Source of the DNA: an uncultured Clostridia bacterium
GTDB taxonomy: Bacteria; Bacillota; Clostridia; Oscillospirales; Acutalibacteraceae
Assembly (NCBI GenBank): GCA_945787805.1
Contig: CALZID010000001.1
Location: 248,001 to 312,000 of the forward strand
Length of the DNA stretch: 64,000 nt
Direction: 5' to 3'
Shown: positions 10,427 through 37,454 of the stretch, in pieces
How the letters are laid out: every line of letters starts with the position of its first letter
Position numbering within the stretch: the first letter of the stretch is position 1
Program-made: the position numbers and the translations under genes
The notes under the pieces: generated by a model
Seen by the model: only the letters and a program-made list of their open reading frames with translations
Databases searched by the model: none
Told to the model about the DNA's origin: nothing

Positions 10427-10480
10427 TCCAAAAAAATAAATAAAGGCAGTACTACCCCATTTTGTTAAGATAGAACTGCC
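10427..10480 (-). terminator. Riboswitch-controlled intrinsic terminator before purE
   Basis: On the minus strand a stem pairs GGCAGTTCTATC with GGGTAGTACTGCC and is followed by a U-rich tract (TTTATTTATTTTTT) ending at the purE ribosome site. Its 5' arm shares the GGCA at the 3' edge of the ZTP aptamer. Ligand binding should therefore compete with terminator formation, making this the expression platform of an ON switch. Confidence 0.85.
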
Positions 10481-10552
10481 CAGACGGTCGGCTAAAATAT
10501 ATAAACGCCGTGCTCCTCTGTGGTACTCCACTTAACTCCGTCAGTAACACGG
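10477..10552 (-). ncRNA. ZTP (pfl-type) riboswitch aptamer
   Basis: The minus-strand leader has the family layout. P1 is CCGTG pairing with CACGG. An internal GTGG-agta-CCAC hairpin is followed by GAGGAGCACGGCG. A linker of about 15 bases leads to the conserved 3' block GCCGACCGTCTGGGCA. ZTP/ZMP riboswitches control purine and one-carbon genes and turn them on when 10-formyl-tetrahydrofolate is scarce. Position between the promoter and purE fits this exactly. A covariance-model search would confirm the family. Confidence 0.9.
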
Positions 10553-10571
10553 TTAATTTATCAACATAAAT

Positions 10572-26800: not shown

Positions 26801-27037
26801 GGGGTTGTAAAAAAAGTGTAGACCGCATAAAGCCCAATATATAAAGGCTTTTTAATACCCCAAAACAATATTTAATCGCATAAGAGTAATAAAAAACAAA
26901 ACAGAAAAAATAATGTTTTATGCTATGAACAAACTTCGCCGCTCGGCGTACCTTTGTACGCCGTCGGGTAACCGATAACAAGGCAAAAGCCTTGTTATCG
27001 CTCAGTTTGTCCATTCTACGCATTTTTTCCTAACCCC
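26801..27037. repeat. Structured intergenic repeat, copy 1 (237 bp)
   Basis: First of three same-orientation copies. It begins GGGGTTGTAAAAAAAG and ends TTTTTTCCTAACCCC, imperfect inverted ends with internal GTGTAGA/TCTACGC. The right 115 bases are almost identical in all copies; the left half is A-rich and varies. Internal pairings are GCATAAA with TTTATGC enclosing AAAGCC/GGCTTT, and ACAAACT with AGTTTGT enclosing GGCGTAC/GTACGCC and a 12-bp CGATAACAAGGC hairpin. No transposase lies nearby. It fills the gap between convergent rodA and pcrA. A MITE or a structured RNA element are the two main readings. Confidence 0.88.
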
Positions 27038-27040
27038 AAA

Positions 27041-27081
27041 AAGTGGCTGTAAAAAACTTCCGTTTTTTACAGCCACTTTTT
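27041..27081. terminator. Bidirectional terminator between rodA and pcrA
   Basis: Perfect 15-bp stem GTGGCTGTAAAAAAC / GTTTTTTACAGCCAC (27043-27076) with loop ttcc, flanked by A-runs on the left and five T on the right. It can stop both convergent genes. The same hairpin design follows the other two repeat copies. Confidence 0.92.
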
Positions 27082-29422
27082 ACGCCTTTTTAACAGCGCC
27101 CATATTTGCCATAATCTTTTTTGTGCCGACTTTTTCAAATGCAATTTCCATTAACACATCATTGCCCATCGGTTTAAGTGAAACTATCATACCCTTACCG
27201 AATACACGGTGCACAACTTGTTCACCGACCATAAAGTTTTCAGTAGATTTAGGCGCAGAATTTGATAATCCGAATCCACGGTTTATCGGTTTATTAGGCT
27301 GAGTAACAGGCTTGCCGATAGGTTTCGGCGGTTTAACAAGATATTGACTGCATTCGTCGGGTATTTCTTTTAAGAACCGTGACGGCTGATTATACCTTGT
27401 TGAGCCGAAAATCATTCTTGAACGGGTATTTAGCAAATAGAGATTTTTCTTTGCTCTTGTAATGCCGACATAAGCAAGCCGTCTTTCTTCTTCAATTTCA
27501 CTCGGTTCGTAAAGTGCTTGCATTCCCGGGAATACCCCTTCTTCCATACCCGGAATAAACACAACGGGAAATTCAAGACCTTTTGATGAGTGGAGCGTCA
27601 TCATAACAACTGCGTCGGTATCGGAATTATAATTGTCGATATCGGTCATCAAGGCGACATCTTCCAAGAAATCAGACAAGTCAGAATCTGGATTTTCCTC
27701 TTTAAATCTGATTAAGTTTGAATTCAATTCGTCAATGTTTTGAATTCTGTCTTCATAGGTTTCTTTATCGGACATAAGAGAAGCCTTATATCCGGTTTCG
27801 TCAAGCAAAGAAACAAACACAGATGACGGTGACTCTCGCTGGGCAAGTTCCGTAAAGCCTTCTATAAGTCTTGTAAATTCAATTAGCTTTTGCGAGCTTC
27901 TTTTAAGCTTTTCATATTCATCGGATGTTTTAAATACCTGAAATAAAGATATGCCGAGTCCATCGGCTATTTCTTTTGCTGTTGCTATTGTTGTAGCGCC
28001 GATTCCCCTTTTCGGCGTATTTATAATTCTTTCAAGACGAACATTATCATCGTGATTGGCAATAACAGAAAGATATGCCAAGCAGTCTTTAATCTCCATT
28101 CTGTCATAGAATTTATGTCCGCCGATAATTCTGTAAGGAATACCGCTTTTGACAAACATTCTTTCAATTGAGTTCGACATTGAATTCATTCTGTAAAGAA
28201 CGGCAAAATCGCTGAATTTTGCATCATCGCCTTTTTTATTCATAATACTCATAATTTCATCGGCGATATATTTGCTTTCGGCGTATTCATCATTCAAGGT
28301 ATTAACTTTTATTTTGTCGCCTGCTCCGTTTGCCGTCCAGAGATTTTTACCTTTTCTTTGTTCGTTATGAGCGATAACAGCGTTTGCGCCGTCAAGAATA
28401 TTTTGCGTAGAGCGATAATTCTGCTCTAAACGAATTACTGTTGCATTGGCAAAATTCTTTTCAAAGCTCAATATATTTTCAATAGTAGCACCGCGGAATT
28501 TATAAATACTTTGGTCATCGTCACCGACAACGCAAATATTATTGTATCCGCTCGATAAAAGCTTTGTCAAAACAAACTGAGCATGGTTAGTGTCTTGATA
28601 TTCGTCAACTAAAACATACTTGAATTTGTTTTGATAGTACTCTCTAATCTGCTCATTATCTTCTAAAAGCTTGACAGTATTAAAAATAATATCGTCAAAG
28701 TCCATAGCGTCAGCATTTTTCAGCAAAGACTGATATTTTTTGTAACACTCGGCAACCTGTCGCTCTCGGTAATTACCGCTACTGAGATTTAAGTATTCAT
28801 CGGGAGGGACAAGAGAATCCTTTGCTCTGCTTATTTCGCCTAAAATTGATTTATGGGGCAAAAACTTGTCATCAATGTTTAAAAGACGCTGACATTCTTT
28901 CATAACCCGTTTACTGTCGTCGGTATCATAGATAGTGAAATGCTTAGAATAGCCCAAGTATTCGGCATTTCTGCGAAGAATTCGCACACATATTGAATGG
29001 AATGTCCCCGCCCAAATATCATTGGCAGCTTCACCGATACGCAAAACAAGTCGTTCTTTTAATTCATTTGCAGCCTTATTAGTGAAAGTGAATGCTAAAA
29101 TTTCCCAGGGCTTAGGCGCATCAACAGACAAAACTCTTTTGATTCTTTCATATACTTCGTTATTACCGTTGTAATATGTATTTAACAAATTAAAAGTATC
29201 ATCGTCAATTCTGTTTTCGATAATATTTGAATTATATGCGCTGCCGTATTTAATCAGATTTGCAATTCTGTTTACAAGTACGGTTGTTTTTCCGCTGCCT
29301 GCACCTGCAAGAATTAAAAGCGGTCCGTCAACCGATAAGACCGCCTTTAATTGCATATCATTCATTCTGTTAAATTCTTTTAAGATTATTTTATTTCTTA
29401 ATTCACAAATTTGTGATTGCAT
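27080..29422 (-). CDS. pcrA: ATP-dependent DNA helicase PcrA/UvrD
   Basis: Superfamily 1 3'-5' helicase for repair and transcription-replication conflicts. Of 780 residues, AGAGSGKTTVLVNRI near residue 40 is Walker A, VDEYQDTNHAQ is Walker B, GDDDQSIYKFRGA is motif III, and VGITRAKKNLYLL is motif VI. The C-terminus (VVHRVFGKGMIVSLKP) is the PcrA Tudor-like domain that binds RNA polymerase. The ATG overlaps the stop of the upstream fumarase gene as TAATG, with AGGAGAG as ribosome site. Confidence 0.96.
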   Translation of the reverse strand: MQSQICELRNKIILKEFNRMNDMQLKAVLSVDGPLLILAGAGSGKTTVLVNRIANLIKYGSAYNSNIIENRIDDDTFNLLNTYYNGNNEVYERIKRVLSVDAPKPWEILAFTFTNKAANELKERLVLRIGEAANDIWAGTFHSICVRILRRNAEYLGYSKHFTIYDTDDSKRVMKECQRLLNIDDKFLPHKSILGEISRAKDSLVPPDEYLNLSSGNYRERQVAECYKKYQSLLKNADAMDFDDIIFNTVKLLEDNEQIREYYQNKFKYVLVDEYQDTNHAQFVLTKLLSSGYNNICVVGDDDQSIYKFRGATIENILSFEKNFANATVIRLEQNYRSTQNILDGANAVIAHNEQRKGKNLWTANGAGDKIKVNTLNDEYAESKYIADEIMSIMNKKGDDAKFSDFAVLYRMNSMSNSIERMFVKSGIPYRIIGGHKFYDRMEIKDCLAYLSVIANHDDNVRLERIINTPKRGIGATTIATAKEIADGLGISLFQVFKTSDEYEKLKRSSQKLIEFTRLIEGFTELAQRESPSSVFVSLLDETGYKASLMSDKETYEDRIQNIDELNSNLIRFKEENPDSDLSDFLEDVALMTDIDNYNSDTDAVVMMTLHSSKGLEFPVVFIPGMEEGVFPGMQALYEPSEIEEERRLAYVGITRAKKNLYLLNTRSRMIFGSTRYNQPSRFLKEIPDECSQYLVKPPKPIGKPVTQPNKPINRGFGLSNSAPKSTENFMVGEQVVHRVFGKGMIVSLKPMGNDVLMEIAFEKVGTKKIMANMGAVKKA

Positions 29423-29958
29423 TATTTCTCTCCTATGTCAAATAAATTTCCGCCGTTTGAATCTATCGCAACAATTAAAGGAAAATTCTTAAAAGTAAGC
29501 TTCTTAACAGACTCACACCCTAAATCTTCAAAGGCTATGACTTCTGCTTCAACAATAGATTTTGATGCAAGGGCTCCCGCCCCGCCTGTTGCACAAAAAT
29601 ATATTGCGTTATTTTTTTTAATCGCTTCACAAACTTCTTTTGAACGCGGACCTTTACCAATCATCGCCTTTAACCCTAAATCAAGAAGAGTGGGAGCAAA
29701 TTTATCCATTCTGCTTGATGTTGTAGGTCCACAACTGCCTATAGCTGAATTCTCGGGTGTAGGAGTCGGACCTGCATAATATATCGCCGCACCGTTAATA
29801 TCAAACGGCAATATTTCACCGTTTTCAATTAGGTTTATAATTCTTTTATGAGCAGCGTCACGGGCTGTATAAACAGTGCCAGACAGATAAACTCTGTCCC
29901 CGGCTTTAAGCTTTGAAACTGACTCGTTTAATTTAGATGTATGAATGGAATATTCCAT
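29422..29958 (-). CDS. Class I fumarate hydratase beta subunit (FumA C-terminal type)
   Basis: C-terminal, substrate-binding half of iron-sulfur fumarase or a related tartrate dehydratase. The 178-residue protein has LKAGDRVYLSGTVYTARDAA, YYAGPTPTPENSAIGSCGPT and TGGAGALASKSI, typical of this subunit. The alpha subunit carrying the cluster cysteines is usually directly upstream, but here the upstream neighbour is a DivIVA-like gene and no alpha gene exists in the window. Assignment to fumarase rather than tartrate dehydratase is uncertain. Confidence 0.85.
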   Translation of the reverse strand: MEYSIHTSKLNESVSKLKAGDRVYLSGTVYTARDAAHKRIINLIENGEILPFDINGAAIYYAGPTPTPENSAIGSCGPTTSSRMDKFAPTLLDLGLKAMIGKGPRSKEVCEAIKKNNAIYFCATGGAGALASKSIVEAEVIAFEDLGCESVKKLTFKNFPLIVAIDSNGGNLFDIGEK

Positions 29959-29959
29959 C

Positions 29960-30724
29960 TTAATCTTCTCCGTTTGGTTGTATATTCAAATCTGCATTAA
30001 ACTCTGTGTTTGATTCATAAGATATAAATGTAAGTCCGCTGCCGTCATCGGTTCGCTCTACACGGATTGCGTCTTCAGGTATATCCTTATCAAAATTCAC
30101 GGTATGTGCTTCAATTCCGGTTAAGTCCGTATGTAAATTGAGAAGTAACGATGCCGAGTTGTTAAGCTTGCTGCCGAGCGCATAAACATCTTTATGAAGC
30201 TGTTCAAGAGAAGAATTAAATTTTCTTGAAATTGCATCAACATCTTTGAGAAGCTGTTCAATTTCATTTGCTTCCCGTTTAACATCCTGTGATGCGATTG
30301 CGCCAATGTCTTTCGCCTTTGATTTTGCACTGTCAACAAGCTCGTCAGAATATCTTCTCGCATCAATATATGCAGCACCTATTTGTTTTTCTGCTCTTTT
30401 TAGTTTTTCGGATTTTTCTTCAAAGCCGTTAATTCTTTCAATATATTGAGCATTCTCTTTAAGTGCAACTTCTAACTTAACGGAGAGTTCATTTACTTCT
30501 TTTTCTTTTTCTTCCAATTTTTCGTTAACGGCACAAAGATTTTCGATTCGCATTTCAAGCTCATCAATTTTGTGCTTTAATTCAAGCGATTCATTTCTCT
30601 TGCTTTCGAGCTGTTCTTTAACATCTGCGGTTTCGGTCTGTAATTTTTCAACATAAGCCAACACATCGGACTTTTTAAAACCGCCGAATATAGAAGTTTT
30701 CATTACTGTAATATCGTTGCTCAT
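29960..30724 (-). CDS. DivIVA-like coiled-coil protein
   Basis: 254 residues. The start SIFGGFKKSDVLAYVEKLQ matches the membrane-binding N-terminal motif of DivIVA/GpsB proteins. From about residue 25 to 190 it is a Glu/Lys-rich coiled coil with heptad character, then an acidic tail. A scaffold at curved membrane or septa is the family role; the exact function here is unknown. The ATG at 30724 is preferred to the GTG directly before it. First gene of a three-gene unit with fumarase beta and pcrA. Confidence 0.72.
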   Translation of the reverse strand: MSNDITVMKTSIFGGFKKSDVLAYVEKLQTETADVKEQLESKRNESLELKHKIDELEMRIENLCAVNEKLEEKEKEVNELSVKLEVALKENAQYIERINGFEEKSEKLKRAEKQIGAAYIDARRYSDELVDSAKSKAKDIGAIASQDVKREANEIEQLLKDVDAISRKFNSSLEQLHKDVYALGSKLNNSASLLLNLHTDLTGIEAHTVNFDKDIPEDAIRVERTDDGSGLTFISYESNTEFNADLNIQPNGED

Positions 30725-30756
30725 CACTACAACCCCGTATAAAAATTATTATTTAT

Positions 30757-30785
30757 ATTTTAACAGATAATTTTCATTATGACAA
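30757..30785 (-). promoter_or_regulatory. Promoter of divIVA-like/fumarase/pcrA unit
   Basis: Minus-strand TTGTCA at 30785-30780 and TAAAAT at 30762-30757, spacer 17 bases, about 33 bases before the ATG. Confidence 0.7.
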
Positions 30786-30864
30786 CTATTTGTTAAAATA
30801 AAGACAAAAAAATATGGACTTTTGTTGAATAAGGTTGTAAAATACAAATTAGAGGTGATATTTT

Positions 30865-31836
30865 ATGAAGAAAAATACAAAGAAAGTGTTAAAGACTGTC
30901 GGTATTGCAGGGGCGCTCGCATCGGCTTCATATTTTCTTATAGGAAATATTTTCTACGCTTTAACCTTGACAAAGCAAGGCATAAACGGAAACATCTCAA
31001 CAAAGGTTGTAAAACCCAATAAAGCGGTTGATGATTATACTCAATATCTCAATGATGAGCTTGATAAGGGAAAAGTATGGTTTGATGAAATAAAGAAAGA
31101 AAAAATTGCTATTCGTTCATCAAGCGACAAGAAAAATCTTCATGCCGATTACATTTTTGCCGACAAACCGACTGATATTTGCGCATTGGTTGTTCACGGC
31201 TACACTTCGTCACCGAGAAATATGGGAATCTATGCAAAAAAATATCACGAGCTGGGATATGATGTTGTAATGCCCAGTCTTAACGGTCACGCAGACAGCG
31301 AAACAGGATATGTAACAATGGGCTGGGATGATAGGCTTGATGTAATTGACTGGATAAATTTTATTGTAGATAATAATCCAAATGTAAAGATTTTAATACA
31401 CGGAGTTTCAATGGGTGCGGCAACAACCATGATGGCAACCGGTGAAGATTTACCCGAAAATGTCAAAGTTGCCGTTGCTGACTGCGGCTATTCATCTGTT
31501 TGGGATATTTTCAGTAACAAGCTTCAGAACAGCTTTAAGCTTCACGAGTTCCCTACTTTATATTCCGCAAATGCGGTTAATAAATTGTATTCGGGTTTTG
31601 ATTTCAAAGAAGCGTCGTCAATCGAACAGTTGAAAAAATCAAAAACACCGACTATTTTCCTGCACGGTGAAAAAGACACCTTTGTGCCTTATGAAATGCT
31701 TGATAAGGTTTATGAGGCTGCCGCTTGTGAAAAAGAAAAAGTTACGATTCCAAATGCGCCACATGCCAGAAACGCTTGTGCTGACCCGGAGCTTTATTGG
31801 AGCTCAATTCAAAACTTTATAAACAGGTACTTATAA
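30865..31836 (+). CDS. Membrane-anchored alpha/beta hydrolase
   Basis: 323 residues with a single N-terminal hydrophobic helix (about 11-33) after MKKNTKK, so the enzyme likely faces outside. The hydrolase core shows LVVHGYTSSPRNMGIY (oxyanion region), the nucleophile elbow GVSMGAATTM, FLHGEKDTFVP with the acid, and a final His in NAPHARN. This arrangement matches serine hydrolases of the YqkD/acyl-peptidase-like group; substrate unknown. AGAGGTGA precedes the ATG. Monocistronic, and followed by repeat copy 2 four bases after its stop. Confidence 0.88.
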   Translation: MKKNTKKVLKTVGIAGALASASYFLIGNIFYALTLTKQGINGNISTKVVKPNKAVDDYTQYLNDELDKGKVWFDEIKKEKIAIRSSSDKKNLHADYIFADKPTDICALVVHGYTSSPRNMGIYAKKYHELGYDVVMPSLNGHADSETGYVTMGWDDRLDVIDWINFIVDNNPNVKILIHGVSMGAATTMMATGEDLPENVKVAVADCGYSSVWDIFSNKLQNSFKLHEFPTLYSANAVNKLYSGFDFKEASSIEQLKKSKTPTIFLHGEKDTFVPYEMLDKVYEAAACEKEKVTIPNAPHARNACADPELYWSSIQNFINRYL

Positions 31837-31840
31837 GATT

Positions 31841-32080
31841 GGGGTTGTAAAAAAGTGTAGACCGCATAAAACCCTATAAGTAAAGGTTTTTTAGTACCCC
31901 AAAACAGCATTAAATCAAATAAAAGTAATAAAAATCAAAAAACAGATAAAAAATAATGTTTTATGCTATGAACAAACTTCGCCGCTCGGCGTACCTTTGT
32001 ACGCCGTCGGGTAACCGATAACAAGGCAAAAGCCTTGTTATCGCTCAGTTTGTCCATTCTACGCATTTTTTCCTAACCCC
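31841..32080. repeat. Structured intergenic repeat, copy 2 (240 bp)
   Basis: Same orientation and ends as copy 1. In the variable left half the small stem is AAAACC/GGTTTT instead of AAAGCC/GGCTTT, a compensated base-pair change. The right half is identical to copy 1 across the hairpin region. Lies between the alpha/beta hydrolase and the convergent glucosaminidase gene; with the hairpin at 32087 it fills this 305-base gap. Confidence 0.88.
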
Positions 32081-32086
32081 ACAAAC

Positions 32087-32124
32087 AGGGGCTGTAAAAA
32101 AACGAAAGTTTTTTTACAGCCCCT
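32087..32124. terminator. Hairpin terminator after repeat copy 2
   Basis: 17-bp stem AGGGGCTGTAAAAAAAC / GTTTTTTTACAGCCCCT with loop gaaa, then TTAATTTTAAT on the plus side. Probably ends the hydrolase transcript; the minus-side U-tract is poor. Confidence 0.8.
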
Positions 32125-32141
32125 TAATTTTAATATATTCG

Positions 32142-34538
32142 TTACGGTATCCAAACACCATTTGAGTCAAAGTGATATTCCTTTCCGTCAATTACCTTGG
32201 TACCGGTTACCATATATCCGTTAGCGTCGAGATAATACCATTTATTATTCCATTCCAGCCAACTGTCAGTCATCATTCTGCCGTTTGAGTCAAGGTAACA
32301 CCAACCGACTGAGTCTTTAACCCATTCATTTGTAACCAAATGGCCGTTTGAGCCAAGATAACACCAGCCAACGCTGTCCTTAACCCATTTGTTATATAGC
32401 CAATGACCGTTTGAGTCAAGATAACACCAACCGACTGAGTCTTTAACCCAATGACCTTTTGAATCGTGTAAACAATCAATTTCACCGCTTTTATATTTAA
32501 AAATTTTAAGAGCATCGGCAAGCTCAACTTTACCGTTTATATCAGTATCGGCAGCTAATAACGATAAAGCCGTAAGAGAAGAAATCTCACCTGTTTTATA
32601 TTTAAAAATCAGCAGTGCGTCTGCAATTGTAACAGAATCGTCAGCGTCAATATCACCTAAAATTACATCTGCGGTAACAGTAATTTTGCAGGTGGCTTTA
32701 AAATTGCCGACTTGTGCCGTAATGGTTGCTTCGCCCTTACCGACAGCAGTTACTTTACCGTTTGATACCGTTGCCACAGAAGTATTTGAAGATGACCATT
32801 TTACTGTTTTATCGTCCGTAGTATTTGAAGGTTGATAACTGACAGAAAGAGTTGATGTATCGCCTTTAAACAATGAACGCGATGTCGAATTTAGAGTAAT
32901 TCCCGTCATTGGAATTTGTTGCTGATTGCTTCTGACAATGTTGATTGTATATGTACGCACATTGCCGTTCTCTGCTTTTACAATAACAGATACAGTATTG
33001 TTACCGTCTTTAAGCGCTATATTACCGACACCGTTGGTAATTTTTGCTTTTGAATTGATTGTTGTAGCCGCAATATTAACAGAAGATACATTTGAAGCAA
33101 CAGTATATGAATATCCTTCGGTTTTTGCAGAATCAAAGCCAATAGAATTTCCGTCAATTGTCAAGGTTTTTAACCAATTGTTAGGATTATAACTGTTTGC
33201 TTCCGGTAACTTACAAGGCTTTTCAGGCATATTTCTGTAATATGGGATAATAAAGGTAAAACTATTGTCAATAATTCCCAGCTCAATATATGATTTTTTA
33301 ATATTGGGCGCTTCGTGTGAAGGTGCTACAATATTTGTCATATACTGATGATAAAAGTTTGACGGGTCACTATTTGAAGTATTGAATTTTTGAAAATACA
33401 GTGTATTTTGCTTATGGATACTGTTTATGTATGACATACCAATCCAGTAGGCGCCGCCCACAATAGACCTATACTGAGTATTCCACGGAATATAACAAAG
33501 AGCTTTTTTCTCATTTGACATAGAACCGCCGTTTTTCGCAAAATTCAAACCGTTTGCAATAGGGTCTGACCCTGCAGAGGCACCTATATTATAAAAATTG
33601 TAATAACCGGCATAGCTACCGTAATTACCGCTTGTTGAACCACTGCCTTTATATCCGACTTCTTGGATAGTTCTCGACGCCAAATGATATGGGCTCACTT
33701 TTGAATAAACAGCCGCATCAATATATGCTTGTGTATATAAAACATCTGCACCGTCAAAGTTTTTGATGGTTTTATTGTTCATAAAAGAATTTTTAAGAAT
33801 ACTTGAAACACCGTTAATGTTTTGTGTTGAAGTATCATAAGAAAGATTTTCAAACATGAAAATTGTGTTTTCATTCAGAAAATTTCTGGGGTCCATATAA
33901 TATGCAACGGTTTCTTTATTAGCCTGATACCAAGATGAACCGTCATGTGCAATCCACTTATCTTCACGCCAGTTATAGCAATCACTTGCTGTCGAACGGT
34001 ATGAAAGCGGTGGATTTTGCATTAGGCTGCGGCCTGTATAGCATTGGCCGTATTTTGTTGTTACAAACAAGTCATCCCAGTTATATCCTGTATCATAAAA
34101 TACAAACTTCCAATTAGGGTGAAAACTTAAAAGCTGTTCAATATACGGTTTATAGATTTCAGGAACACCTTCAGGCATTTCAAAATCATCCGATATATTC
34201 TGTATTGTAACATATTGCGCTGCTACATATCCCTTATAAGATTTACCGCTATAAGTAAACTCAACATAGCACCATCTGGGGTTTGTAGAATCGTTAGAAG
34301 AATTAACTGTATCAAGAACAGTAACAGAATGACCTGTTTGAAGCTGAACCTTAGTACCGTTAACATATAACTTGTTATCGCCGTCTTTTGTGGACGGTGA
34401 AGTTCTAACATGGACATTGGTGTTGTTAATATATCCGGCTTTTGACTCAGCATAAACAAAAAAAGATGCTGAAAGAGAAAATAATATTGATAGTGTTAAA
34501 AGTAACGACATAATGCTCTTAAAAATATTTTGTTTCAC
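32142..34538 (-). CDS. Secreted multidomain glucosaminidase with dockerin and wall-binding repeats
   Basis: 798 residues from GTG 34538. Order: signal peptide (about 1-30); SH3b-like domain with NVHVRTSPSTKDG; a LytD-like glucosaminidase core with MDPRNFLNENTIFMFENLSY and ASRTIQEVGYKG (about 110-400); a cadherin-like beta-sandwich; a BIG2 Ig-like domain (WSSSNTSVATVSNGKVTAVG); two dockerin repeats (GDIDADDSVTIADALLIFKY and ADTDINGKVELADALKIFKY); then choline-binding-type repeats such as DSVGWCYLDSNGH. Likely cuts or remodels peptidoglycan outside the cell. GTG is chosen since GGAAGTGAG precedes it, and the ATG at 34556 would sit at the transcript start. Confidence 0.9.
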   Translation of the reverse strand: MKQNIFKSIMSLLLTLSILFSLSASFFVYAESKAGYINNTNVHVRTSPSTKDGDNKLYVNGTKVQLQTGHSVTVLDTVNSSNDSTNPRWCYVEFTYSGKSYKGYVAAQYVTIQNISDDFEMPEGVPEIYKPYIEQLLSFHPNWKFVFYDTGYNWDDLFVTTKYGQCYTGRSLMQNPPLSYRSTASDCYNWREDKWIAHDGSSWYQANKETVAYYMDPRNFLNENTIFMFENLSYDTSTQNINGVSSILKNSFMNNKTIKNFDGADVLYTQAYIDAAVYSKVSPYHLASRTIQEVGYKGSGSTSGNYGSYAGYYNFYNIGASAGSDPIANGLNFAKNGGSMSNEKKALCYIPWNTQYRSIVGGAYWIGMSYINSIHKQNTLYFQKFNTSNSDPSNFYHQYMTNIVAPSHEAPNIKKSYIELGIIDNSFTFIIPYYRNMPEKPCKLPEANSYNPNNWLKTLTIDGNSIGFDSAKTEGYSYTVASNVSSVNIAATTINSKAKITNGVGNIALKDGNNTVSVIVKAENGNVRTYTINIVRSNQQQIPMTGITLNSTSRSLFKGDTSTLSVSYQPSNTTDDKTVKWSSSNTSVATVSNGKVTAVGKGEATITAQVGNFKATCKITVTADVILGDIDADDSVTIADALLIFKYKTGEISSLTALSLLAADTDINGKVELADALKIFKYKSGEIDCLHDSKGHWVKDSVGWCYLDSNGHWLYNKWVKDSVGWCYLGSNGHLVTNEWVKDSVGWCYLDSNGRMMTDSWLEWNNKWYYLDANGYMVTGTKVIDGKEYHFDSNGVWIP
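32281..32451 (-). repeat. In-gene 63-bp tandem repeats (wall-binding module)
   Basis: Near-identical units start at 32281, 32344 and 32407, spaced exactly 63 bases, each encoding a 21-residue WVKDSVGWCYL-type repeat. The DNA identity is higher than function alone needs, suggesting recent duplication. Confidence 0.9.
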
Positions 34539-34567
34539 ATTCTCACTTCCCAGCATAATATATGCTT

Positions 34568-34596
34568 ATTTTACCAAAAAAGTCAGAAATCGTCAA
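34568..34596 (-). promoter_or_regulatory. Promoter of glucosaminidase gene
   Basis: Minus-strand TTGACG at 34596-34591 and TAAAAT at 34573-34568, spacer 17. It begins just after the end of the upstream lipoprotein gene at 34607, so the gene has its own promoter. Confidence 0.78.
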
Positions 34597-34606
34597 GTTA
34601 CATATA

Positions 34607-35785
34607 TTACCATTGTTGATTATTCTTCAAAATATTTTCCTTTTCCAATCGTGTTTCGTCATAGTCGTTATACAGATATGAAGCTGAATAATAAACATAA
34701 CCGTCAAAATTGTTTTGTTTTATACATTGTATTTGCCTGAATATTACATCATTATTTAGGGTCCATTCATCACTGCCGGTTTTTGCGTAAAAATCCGTTT
34801 TACCTGCTTTATAAATTGGCAGTCCAACTGCAATTTTTACTTTACTGTTCAAATTTTTCCATTCATCAATACAATTTTCAAACGGCATTGTACCATGTTC
34901 AAATCCAAAATATATTTGCGGAATAATATAATCAGCATATCCCATTGTTGCAGACCATTTTATTATGTCGGCATATTTTTCATTGTAATTCTTTTCTATA
35001 TCGGCAGACGGGCTTATTGAAAAAATCAAATTTCTGCTTTTACACAGACTGTATACAGAAGAAATGAATGTATTGACTGATTCCCGTCTTATATCTTCGA
35101 CTGTCAGCTTTCCCCCATTTGCACAGTATTCATCATAAAAATTTTTATCAATATTTTTGTCGGTTGTAGGATAAAAATAATCATCAAAGTGAATTCCGTC
35201 TACATCATAATTATCAATAATTTCTCTGATACCCGTCAGAACATACTTTTGAACATCAAGAAAAACGGGATTATAATATATGCCGTTTTCACAAATAATC
35301 AATTTTTCAATTTCTTCATTGTTTGAATAAATTTTATAAGCAAATGACTCTGAACTGATTTTTGAAATATCCGATTGATTTGATATTCTAAACGGATTTA
35401 TCCATGCATGTACTTTTATGCTTTTTGAATGGGCACAGCTGACAAACACTGATAATATATCAAAAAACTCATTTTGTTTATTGCAAGCATATTTACTCTT
35501 AACAAAAATATTTGAAGAATAAAAAGCATCGTCAAATGCTCTTGAGTGAAGAAAAATATTGTTAATGTTATATTTTATTAAAATATCCAAAATACTGTTA
35601 ATTTTCATTATCAATTGTTCTGTATTATCAACGGAATTAACAATTTCTGAAATTTCATTATAATTTATCCAAGCACCGACAAAGCTTTCATTATTAACTT
35701 CAAAATTCGAGTCATTTTCTTTGTTTAATGTACACGAAGACAACAACAATACAACTGATAAAATGCAAATTATGTATTTTTTCAA
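34607..35785 (-). CDS. Lipoprotein, GH10-like hydrolase family (YngK/DUF187)
   Basis: 392 residues. A lipoprotein signal ends in LLLLSSC, so the enzyme is anchored outside the membrane. The body is a TIM barrel like 'glycosyl hydrolase-like 10' proteins: FVGAWINYNEI, NIFLHSRAFDDAFY, KVHAWINPFRIS, DVDGIHFDDYFYPT and GYADYIIPQIYFGFEHG. Substrate is unknown; related proteins are thought to act on cell-surface glycans. TTG start at 35785 has AAAGGAG 7 bases upstream. Divergent from perR, with a shared 89-base gap. Confidence 0.88.
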   Translation of the reverse strand: MKKYIICILSVVLLLSSCTLNKENDSNFEVNNESFVGAWINYNEISEIVNSVDNTEQLIMKINSILDILIKYNINNIFLHSRAFDDAFYSSNIFVKSKYACNKQNEFFDILSVFVSCAHSKSIKVHAWINPFRISNQSDISKISSESFAYKIYSNNEEIEKLIICENGIYYNPVFLDVQKYVLTGIREIIDNYDVDGIHFDDYFYPTTDKNIDKNFYDEYCANGGKLTVEDIRRESVNTFISSVYSLCKSRNLIFSISPSADIEKNYNEKYADIIKWSATMGYADYIIPQIYFGFEHGTMPFENCIDEWKNLNSKVKIAVGLPIYKAGKTDFYAKTGSDEWTLNNDVIFRQIQCIKQNNFDGYVYYSASYLYNDYDETRLEKENILKNNQQW

Positions 35786-35813
35786 ATTTATTCTCCTTTT
35801 ATATAAAAAACTA

Positions 35814-35841
35814 TTGACTTTTATTCAAAAAATGTTATAAT
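35814..35841 (+). promoter_or_regulatory. Promoter of perR-reverse rubrerythrin operon
   Basis: TTGACT at 35814-35819 and TATAAT at 35836-35841, 16-base spacer. The palindrome that follows lies over the expected transcription start. Confidence 0.85.
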
Positions 35842-35843
35842 AA

Positions 35844-35858
35844 CAGTAATCATTACTG
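35844..35858 (+). promoter_or_regulatory. Fur/PerR-type operator palindrome
   Basis: CAGTAAT-c-ATTACTG is a perfect 7-1-7 inverted repeat, the layout of PerR/Fur boxes, placed just after the -10 element and before a Fur-family gene. Autorepression is the likely role. It could also affect the divergent lipoprotein gene. Confidence 0.8.
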
Positions 35859-35874
35859 ATAGAGAGGTGAAAAA

Positions 35875-36255
35875 ATGCCAATAGAAAGAAAAAGCAAACA
35901 GAGAGATGCAATTATAAATGAATTGTGTTCAAGAGATGACCATCCCACAGCAATGGAGCTTTATCTTTCTGTTCGCGAAGTTATTCCAAATCTCAGTTTA
36001 GGAACTCTTTATCGCAATCTATCTCAGCTTGAAGAAAGCGGTATGGTTTTAAGAATTCCCGACGGTTCTAACGACAGGTTTGACGGCAATATTAATCCCC
36101 ACGCTCATTTTAAGTGTACTGTCTGCGGTAAAGTATATGATTTAATGTCTTTTAAAAATGACTCTGTCTCTTTTTCGGATGACATTATCGGAAATGTTGT
36201 AAATTACAGTTTAATGGCTTTTGGCCAATGTAAACATTGTAATAAATTAAATTAA
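35875..36255 (+). CDS. perR: Fur-family peroxide-responsive repressor, PerR-like
   Basis: 126-residue winged-helix repressor. The structural zinc site is CTVC (81-84) and CKHC (119-122). Probable regulatory metal ligands are H23 in DDHPTA, D70 in DRFDG and H76/H78 in NPHAHF, like the histidines that oxidise in PerR. Its operon partner is reverse rubrerythrin, the main PerR target in Clostridium, which favours PerR over Fur. GAGAGGTGA precedes the ATG. Confidence 0.88.
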
Positions 36256-36274
36256 ATATTTTGGAGGAAAAATT

Positions 36275-36820
36275 ATGAAAAAATTTGTATGTTCAGTATG
36301 CGGTTATGTTCACTACGGTGATTCGGCACCCGAAAGATGCCCTCAGTGTAAAGTTCCTGCAGACAAGTTCAATGAAGTTAACGAAGACGAGAGAACTTGG
36401 GCAGCAGAACATGTTGTAGGCGTTGCAAAAGGTGTTTCTGAAGACATCATTAAAGATCTCCGTGCAAACTTTGAAGGTGAATGTTCAGAAGTAGGTATGT
36501 ATCTTGCTATGGCAAGAGTTGCACACCGTGAAGGTTATCCCGAAATCGGTCTTTATTGGGAAAAGGCTGCTTGGGAAGAAGCAGAACACGCTGCAAAATT
36601 TGCAGAGCTTCTCGGTGAGGTTGTAACAGACAGCACAAAGAAAAACCTTGAAATGAGAGTTGACGCTGAAAATGGTGCAACTGCCGGTAAGTTTGACCTT
36701 GCAAAGCGTGCAAAGGAACAAGGTCTTGATGCAATTCATGACACAGTTCACGAAATGGCAAGAGATGAAGCAAGACACGGCAAGGCATTTGAAGGTCTTC
36801 TCAACAGATACTTCAAATAA
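36275..36820 (+). CDS. Reverse rubrerythrin
   Basis: Peroxide and oxygen reductase of anaerobes. The 181-residue protein has an N-terminal rubredoxin domain (CSVC at 6-9, CPQC at 22-25) followed by the ferritin-like diiron domain with [20 protein letters not shown] and [12 protein letters not shown]. This order is reversed relative to the rubrerythrin at 16412. A GGAGG site precedes the ATG, 19 bases after perR. A strong terminator follows. Codon use looks biased to high expression (many GAA, GCA, CGT/AGA codons), by eye only. Confidence 0.95.
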
Positions 36821-36840
36821 ACCAAACAAAAAATACTATC

Positions 36841-36874
36841 AGGGACTTGTCCGATGCGGCAAGTCCCTTTTTTC
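36841..36874 (+). terminator. Terminator of perR-reverse rubrerythrin operon
   Basis: GGGACTTG pairs with CAAGTCCC around a short inner stem-loop (tccgatgcgg), then TTTTTT. Twenty bases after the rubrerythrin stop. The gap 36821-37212 holds this, repeat copy 3 and a second hairpin. Confidence 0.92.
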
Positions 36875-36922
36875 ACCTTTCAATTATATTCTGTCAAGTA
36901 TTTAAATATCGTAAAAGAAAAA

Positions 36923-37161
36923 GGGGTTGTAAAAAAAGTGTAGACCGCATAAAACACCATAATAAAGGCTTTTTAATACCCAAAACAGCATTTTATCAAA
37001 TAAAAGTAATAAAAAACAAAAAACAGATAAAAAATAATGTTTTATGCTATGAACAAACTTCGCCTCTCGGCGTACCTTTGTACGCCGTCGGGTAACCGAT
37101 AACAAGGCAAAAGCCTTGTTATCGCTCAGTTTGTCCATTCTACGCATTTTTTCCTAACCCC
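36923..37161. repeat. Structured intergenic repeat, copy 3 (239 bp)
   Basis: Same orientation and ends as the other copies. One substitution (CGCCTCTCGG for CGCCGCTCGG) lies in the conserved right half. The small left stem is poorly kept here (AAAACACC against GGCTTT). It sits between the end of the reverse rubrerythrin operon and the end of the minus-strand spoVM cluster. Confidence 0.88.
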
Positions 37162-37163
37162 AC

Positions 37164-37204
37164 AAAAGGGGCTGTAAAAAAACTTTCATTTTTTTACAGC
37201 CCCT
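37164..37204 (-). terminator. Terminator of the spoVM end of the minus cluster
   Basis: AGGGGCTGTAAAAAAA / TTTTTTTACAGCCCCT with loop ctttca; on the minus strand it is followed by TTTTG and lies 8 bases after the spoVM stop. Same hairpin family as at 27041 and 32087. Confidence 0.82.
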
Positions 37205-37212
37205 TATCGGAG

Positions 37213-37304: not shown

Positions 37305-37454
37305 CTAATTCTTGCAAAGAGAAACACCGCATATTATTAACAGTATTGCCAATAACACAACAATGAATTTATAGGGAAAAACAAAGGTTATCATAAGACC
37401 GACGCCAAGAGCTACAAAAATCAAGCCCTTAAAATTTGACCTATGCTTTCCCAT
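37305..37454 (-). CDS. 49-aa two-helix membrane protein between thiN and spoVM
   Basis: Family not recognised. The frame begins MGKHRSNFKGLIFVALG, has hydrophobic stretches at about 10-26 and 30-46, and ends SLCKN. Ribosome site GGGGGA lies 6 bases before the ATG. It ends 11 bases before the spoVM start, so the two are probably co-translated. B. subtilis has no such gene at this spot to my knowledge. Its ribosome site lies in the 3' arm of a strong hairpin. Confidence 0.72.
   Translation of the reverse strand: MGKHRSNFKGLIFVALGVGLMITFVFPYKFIVVLLAILLIICGVSLCKN

Follow-up and report, generated by a model that had tools for sequence, protein, structure and literature searches.

REP/REPIN sequences are extragenic palindromes that are non-autonomous and occur with RAYT transposases, and group IIC introns are structured elements found at intrinsic terminators, for which they show target-site specificity. 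The repeat considered here is a folded non-coding element found in three copies in a 64,000-nucleotide stretch of contig CALZID010000001.1 (positions 248,001 to 312,000, forward strand) of an uncultured Clostridia bacterium of the Acutalibacteraceae. That whole stretch is called the window below, and the genome that it belongs to (1.84 Mb, 23 contigs, 98.4% complete) is called G000. The element recalls REP/REPIN in that the Y1 transposase family is present in G000, but it is much larger, has no family-wide GTAG tag and lacks a consistent Y1 partner; it differs from group IIC introns in that no intron open reading frame (ORF) was seen, no Rfam hit was obtained and the putative terminator lies downstream of the element. 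By mode of life, the closest described systems appear to be the bcr1-type repeats and the pneumococcal BOX, RUP, and SPRITE repeats. According to the available text of PMC3446304 and PMC2267715, the bcr1–bcr3 repeats of the Bacillus cereus group are intergenic (bcr1, 147–167 bp), often lie in untranslated regions (UTRs) or operon gaps and have been called structurally and functionally similar to miniature inverted-repeat transposable elements (MITEs), and bcr1 has been scored as conserved in structure. In Streptococcus pneumoniae, SPRITE, BOX, and RUP are small MITE-like repeats; the ends of BOX and of RUP pair mutually, BOX is modular, and SPRITE, with an 18-bp duplex and a U-rich tract, is similar to an intrinsic terminator and concentrated near the 3′ ends of coding sequences (available text of PMC3049150).

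Compared by description only, the Clostridia element shares with bcr1–bcr3 an intergenic position, a comparable size and a MITE-like mode of life, whereas it belongs to a different bacterial class, and neither a built-in terminator nor placement after stop codons is reported in the available text of PMC3446304 and PMC2267715. On the same descriptive footing, it differs from SPRITE, BOX, and RUP (available text of PMC3049150) in uniting a core built as a three-way junction with a separate hairpin in one unit and in spanning many genera. Literature searches, limited in coverage, turned up no description of it.

We consider it reasonably probable that the repeat is mobile but non-autonomous, an element about 285 bp long and MITE-like in its mode of life, whose terminator hairpin travels with it. 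It is a widespread structured element outside Rfam and is mostly tied to gene ends. If the terminator is truly carried, the element would show how a selfish sequence avoids disturbing its neighbours and how genomes gain new terminators. An earlier reading of the window made without database searches (the sequence-only reading) had not noted the probable built-in terminator, the position right behind stop codons, the tandem arrays seen elsewhere or the spread across the class.

Copies, fold and distribution of the element

The sequence-only reading described three copies of 237–240 bp in one orientation, with GGGGTT and AACCCC ends and a nearly invariant right half; all of this was borne out (Table 1), with a mean column identity of 92% when 20-nt flanks are counted in. 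The search of the genome with the 240-bp unit that it proposed returned far more than three copies. G000 contained 32 matches, of which 21 were full-length (87–100% identity) and 11 partial, and chance is therefore excluded as an explanation for the three-copy repeat. Two of the partial matches were internal (L024, L025), eight ended no more than one base from a contig end and one lay on contig C15. The mean pairwise identity of the full copies was 95.6% (minimum 91.9%). By segment, it amounted to 98.5% in the left end and 98.6% in the core and right end, against 89.9% in the middle A-rich stretch. The earlier picture needs correction here: this stretch, located in the P2 arm of the fold, is the least conserved part. 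Copies truncated on the 5′ side (L024, L046, L050, L156) and copies with internal deletions that retain both outer ends (L025, L071) were also observed. The terminal inverted repeats, GGGG[TA]TGTAAAAAA and TTTTTTCCTA[AT]CCCC, are imperfect, and the left end is also complementary to the 3′ arm of the hairpin described below.

Orthologous gaps were compared for copies 1 and 3. The RodA/PcrA gap of copy 1 had no insert in G008, G017, G015, and G027, and that of copy 3 had none in G015, G008, and G021; each of these gaps was short and contained an unrelated hairpin. In G035, the element was absent from both gaps, which were occupied by longer unrelated sequence. The gap comparison suggested in the sequence-only reading thus yielded empty sites at both positions, but not the target duplication that it was also meant to define. 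With the many near-identical copies and no coding capacity seen, the empty gaps support the proposal made there of a MITE-like element moved in trans.

In the fold, a closing helix (P1) is formed from both ends, the P2 arm (GCATAAAAC/GTTTTATGC in G000) holds the variable stretch, and the P3 arm carries hairpin P4 and, in some lineages only, P5. The pairings claimed earlier are present, and the predicted RNA fold of copy 2 reached −71.8 kcal/mol, compared with −39.4 (standard deviation, sd, 3.8) for shuffled sequences. Across 14 core sequences, 94.0% of the cells were paired. Both sides had changed in 17 of the 28 core pairs, against a mean of 7.9 after shuffling, a control that ignores relatedness; none of 500 shuffles was as high. 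Sliding the partner by 1–3 columns lowered pairing to 33–41%, although this control flatters the fold, the structure having been drawn from the same sequences. The outer helices were tested on 116 hits (106 plus 10 of the first set), with the left end located by sequence score in 85, which gave 82 distinct units. In these, P2 had 8.41 of 9 positions paired, whereas shuffling the partners gave 6.92 (sd 0.09); for the six outermost pairs of P1, the corresponding values were 5.07 and 4.64 (sd 0.05). Among 103 distinct hits of a covariance model, several pair types occurred in many columns of P3 and P5 and few in P4, in an alignment fitted to the model. The end-to-end fold is thus supported by covariation above the shuffled controls, and not at the chance level that the sequence-only reading had named as speaking against it; its second suggestion, a conserved structured motif, gains support from the same result.

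In some distant copies (L160, L179, L182, L217, and others), an extra hairpin followed by a T-run lies inside the P2 arm, just before the P2 3′ strand, and resembles an internal terminator. A relative of the P4 hairpin (CTCGGAGTACCTTTGTACGCCTTCGGG) was seen in two copies in G010 (L038, L047), within a different surrounding structure. A short reading frame that opens with the conserved ATG in TATGAAC was inspected visually and dropped, as single-base length differences shift the frame between relatives.

No match to the element was obtained in Rfam with the whole window, with the region of copy 1 at E up to 10, or with 7 and 10 loci including relatives, so that the Rfam match named in the sequence-only reading as speaking against it did not appear. 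Gathering scores were reached elsewhere only, by the ZTP riboswitch, tRNA, transfer-messenger RNA (tmRNA), and the THF riboswitch; microRNA models overlapped the copy 1 hairpin with scores below their thresholds.

Within the genus sample, a full copy near the identity seen inside G000 was found only in G008 (one, 90%); G031 had one at 78%, and the others had partial copies or none. The covariance model (E ≤ 0.001) detected the element in 36 of 394 genomes and 18 of 168 genera of the order sample and in 58 of 391 genomes and 35 of 223 genera of the class sample, two samples that overlap, with E-values that are rough. Restricted to the better assemblies of the class sample, 34 of 318 genomes were positive. 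Among the positive genomes, 29 of 36 in the order sample and 52 of 58 in the class sample had more than one listed match; these copy numbers are lower bounds, since nine candidates were scored per genome, and the model is biased towards 5′-truncated copies because it covers right cores only. A pattern scan of the GTDB species representatives gave 87 stretches, and the titles of the 80 listed were Clostridia, Clostridiales, Eubacteriales, Oscillospiraceae, and one Firmicutes bacterium, many of them from herbivore guts. Phage and plasmid collections gave no match to the element by blastn, and a pattern scan of IMG/VR matched 3 contigs.

Relatedness was compared for 92 copies of multi-copy genomes (100 loci, 32 genomes). 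For 62 of them, the nearest copy came from their own genome, whereas shuffled labels gave 2.7, and identity was 0.80 within genomes and 0.64 between them. Tandem arrays of full units, spaced by about 120–245 bp, occur in several genomes, and some end in a partial unit; a number of loci have a partial left-end copy behind their last unit (seen by eye, no count). One copy, L033 (G045:C21), about 1 kb from a tmRNA gene, is 87% identical to the window element, compared with 74–83% for the other listed G045 matches, and may have been transferred horizontally.

The adjoining hairpin and the placement at gene ends

A hairpin of 32–48 bp with a perfect stem, of the class GCTGT(A)6-7-loop-(T)6-7ACAGC, lies 0–9 nt beyond AACCCC in 20 of the 21 full G000 copies. 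Its loop is CTTTCG or a one-letter variant in the orientation of the element in 18 of the 20 and is flipped in L001 and L017. A pattern search with up to 3 mismatches found the class at 27 sites in G000, 19 of which adjoin the element or a fragment of it, whereas 8 do not; L071, one of the eight, retains 18 nt of the left end. Among 39 genomes of the genus, the pattern occurred in five (27 sites in G000, 4 in G031, and 1 each in G005, G008, and G014), all of which also hold element copies or fragments, and in none of the other 34. These include G006, G009, G010, and G027, which have diverged element matches only. At copy 3, the rubrerythrin-like gene's own hairpin is retained beside that of the insert, whereas the relatives G015, G008, and G021 have one hairpin there. 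Because the hairpin class is confined, by pattern, to element-bearing genomes and copy 3 keeps the resident hairpin beside the insert's, the unit is taken as about 285 bp and probably includes the hairpin, which would act as a terminator. AACCCC, regarded earlier as the right end, therefore stands as the end of the structured part but probably not as that of the unit. In several lineages, one arm of the hairpin resembles the left end of the element in the same genome (by eye, with exceptions such as L129).

In G000, 15 of the 21 full copies start 0–13 nt past the stop codon of an ORF that lies on the same strand and is 60 aa or longer. On the other side, a convergent ORF ends 42–64 nt past the right end of 16 of the 21, roughly the hairpin's own length with a few nucleotides to spare; some of these ORFs are small and of doubtful status. 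The wider set, A4, comprised 106 model hits from 100 loci, 80 of which were hand-picked from the listed order-wide hits and 20 taken directly from the same survey. Left ends were located in 91 of the 106 hits, and dropping 6 with a unit length above 330, 5 with short flanks and 7 with one neighbour uncalled left 73 loci with both neighbours called, by crude ORF calls of at least 70 aa. The gaps were convergent in 37 of them, codirectional in 18 and 15 (the two orientations) and divergent in 3. Where a same-strand upstream ORF was present, the left end lay within 15 nt beyond its stop codon, or overlapped it, in 45 of 56 loci. Pattern-derived hits outside A4 gave a similar picture, with 29 convergent (+/−), 17 and 13 codirectional (+/+ and −/−) and 1 divergent (−/+) gaps, besides 16 short flanks and 2 uncalled. 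Thus, the gap counts of the 73 loci and the spacing from stop codons indicate that the element tracks gene ends, is rare in promoter gaps and has no fixed sense relative to transcription. In the window itself, the convergent gaps claimed for all three copies were confirmed for copies 1 and 2; for copy 3, the closest ORFs to the right are a short one on the minus strand (37305–37454) and the thiamine pyrophosphokinase gene.

The favoured reading, its alternatives and candidate movers

The mobile-element reading builds on what was observed directly, namely the number of copies, the empty sites at two positions in the window, the conservation of the fold, the placement and the co-occurrence with the hairpin class. 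The unit would consist of a left end (a), the P2 arm with its variable content, the P3/P4(/P5) core and a right end (b), followed by a two-way intrinsic terminator hairpin (c–d). Such an element would multiply by copying within a genome, and it would be tolerated in, or would target, the short stretch that separates a stop codon from the point where the transcription unit ends. There it would replace or duplicate the local terminator, so that host genes would remain terminated; the carried terminator may thus be what makes the element harmless. Movement would take place in trans, by a recombinase that recognises the folded form as single-stranded DNA or RNA, and solo hairpins and partial units could arise when the repeated ends a and c recombine. 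In common with MITEs, the element is short and non-coding, has many copies and terminal inverted repeats and is absent at orthologous sites (copies 1 and 3). As tested, it showed neither target duplication nor a partner; it is therefore described as working like a MITE and is not filed as one. A broader version of this model is offered only tentatively. It holds that these are class-wide mobile terminator cassettes, which land between stop codon and terminator with a terminator of their own and are moved by an agent outside the usual transposases that recognises the folded three-way junction; the tandem units, and a folded-back left-end copy serving as terminator, would be by-products.

Several observations weigh against the favoured reading. 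No target-site duplication was seen by eye in the flanks of the 21 copies or in the two empty-site sets, although the relatives are distant and a short one could escape. The 32 G000 matches, nine of which run or may run into a contig end, included no longer, autonomous element sharing the ends of the unit (transposase families searched: IS256, ISL3, and Y1), and none of the enzyme families tested was common to all 12 element-rich genomes considered below. For 30 of the 92 copies, the nearest copy belonged to another genome. Copy L007 carries an unrelated hairpin, as does L051 in G045, and G006, with its diverged element match only, has three weaker hairpin look-alikes below the reach of the pattern. 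The hairpin's spacer and outer stem are far more variable across copies than the core, while always remaining complementary, which could mean that they are older terminators or that the palindrome was remodelled during or after insertion. Finally, the sole control for gap orientation (38 convergent, 33 and 23 codirectional, +/+ and −/−, and 8 divergent) includes the element gaps themselves.

Part of this would be expected if only the 240-bp part were mobile and inserted specifically beside an existing class of palindromic terminators, an alternative that we regard as unlikely. It would account for a hairpin that varies while the core is 98.6% identical, for the different hairpin adjoining L007 and for the 8 of 27 G000 hairpin sites without the 240-bp part. 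However, an independent class of target terminators is hard to reconcile with its absence, by pattern, from 34 of the 39 genomes and its occurrence only alongside the element or its fragments (the weaker look-alikes of G006 aside). In addition, copy 3 still has the resident hairpin next to the new one, and the orientation of the loop tracks that of the element in 18 of 20 cases.

A host-functional 3′-UTR RNA that stabilises or regulates the upstream mRNA, possibly through strand exchange among the left end, the right end and the terminator, appears quite improbable. The covariation and the tight spacing behind stop codons would suit such a role, as would the complementarity of the left end to the 3′ arm of the terminator (a:d, −20.9 kcal/mol), by which antitermination is conceivable. 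The alternative pairing is nevertheless weaker in total (a:d plus c:b, −28.7, compared with −38.5 for a:b plus c:d), and the form with P1 and the terminator is preferred when the whole unit is folded as RNA. The two codirectional orientations are about equally frequent, hence there is often no single fixed sense in the upstream mRNA, and this argues against a role that needs it. The genes upstream of the three window copies are mutually unrelated, and most genus members searched lack a close copy. First counts of wobble pairs leaned to the minus strand (A.C 97 and G.T 11 in set A3; A.C 75 and G.T 20 in A4), but 66 of the 97 A.C pairs of A3, a set mostly chosen by a fixed sequence pattern, came from one pair. 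With that pair omitted and one event counted per genome and pair, the wobbles singled out no transcribed strand (18 G.T and 28 A.C genome-by-pair events).

Candidate movers were sought in 12 element-rich genomes, hand-chosen from the 36 order positives and each with at least 4 matches. RVT_1 was found in 5 of the 12, Y1_Tnp in 5, DDE_Tnp_ISL3 in 2 and Transposase_mut in none. IS256 and ISL3, suspected as partners from their end sequences, were rejected, as neither family was found in G000; RVT_1 had no match in this genome either. Owing to the lack of matches, a resident reverse transcriptase and IS256 or ISL3 transposases are unlikely movers in G000. The mover should be directly testable, since several genomes hold many near-identical copies. 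A retroelement, whose RNA would be copied by target-primed reverse transcription with the 3′ end set by the terminator, is very improbable: the 5′-truncated copies and the tandem arrays, some with a partial unit at the end, would fit it, but RVT_1 had no match in G000 (98.4% complete) or in 7 of the 12 genomes, the internal deletions retain both outer ends, and the covariance model, by its construction, favours 5′-truncated copies. Mobilisation by Y1/RAYT-like transposases of the genome, as in REP/REPIN elements, is equally hard to credit: G000 has five Y1_Tnp matches, three of them over the family cut-off, and two of the genes are near-identical, but 7 of the 12 genomes, including G127 (98% complete), have no Y1_Tnp match, the GTAG of the local element copies is not retained in relatives, and the palindromes in those two genes are unlike the element.

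The five Y1/RAYT-like ORFs of G000 are divergent (L335:1487–1978, L333:1740–2165, L334:1651–2196, L336:4422–4775, and L332:1586–2338). Those of L335 and L333 are 95% identical; each begins where the upstream gene has its stop codon and, by eye, contains two inverted GTAG-headed palindromes within the reading frame. An apparent decayed member of this Y1 gene family lies directly behind one element copy (L002, about 1820–2135; G000:C2).

Features of the window

Table 1. Positions of the three element copies, their parts and the associated hairpins in the window.
Feature	Position	Strand	Remarks
Copy 1, structured part (left end to AACCCC)	26801..27037	+	Flanked by a gene of the RodA/FtsW family (stop 26798) and, in convergent orientation, a PcrA-type helicase gene
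Copy 1, putative terminator hairpin	27038..27081	.	Perfect 20-bp stem, loop 4
Copy 2, structured part	31841..32080	+	Starts 4 nt past the stop of an alpha/beta-hydrolase-like gene (family matches weak only)
Copy 2, P1 5′ strand (left end)	31841..31861	+	Partner is the right end, about 32057–32080; from the fold and the shuffled-partner test of the outer pairs
Copy 2, P2 5′ strand GCATAAAAC	31864..31872	+	Partner 31958–31966, with the variable A-rich region in between; from the fold and covariation
Copy 2, P3 arm	31971..32053	+	Encloses hairpins P4 (CGGCGTAC/GTACGCCG) and P5 (CGATAACAAGGC/GCCTTGTTATCG); from covariation
Copy 2, putative terminator hairpin	32087..32124	.	Perfect 17-bp stem; loop flipped relative to most copies; −27.5 kcal/mol
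Terminator-like hairpin and T-run of the rubrerythrin-like gene	36841..36873	+	Upstream of copy 3, retained; read by eye
Copy 3, structured part	36923..37161	+	102 nt 3′ of the stop of the rubrerythrin-like gene
Copy 3, putative terminator hairpin	37166..37205	.	Perfect 17-bp stem; adjoins the insert

Apart from the element, the window contains an ordinary ZMP/ZTP riboswitch at 10471–10558 on the minus strand.

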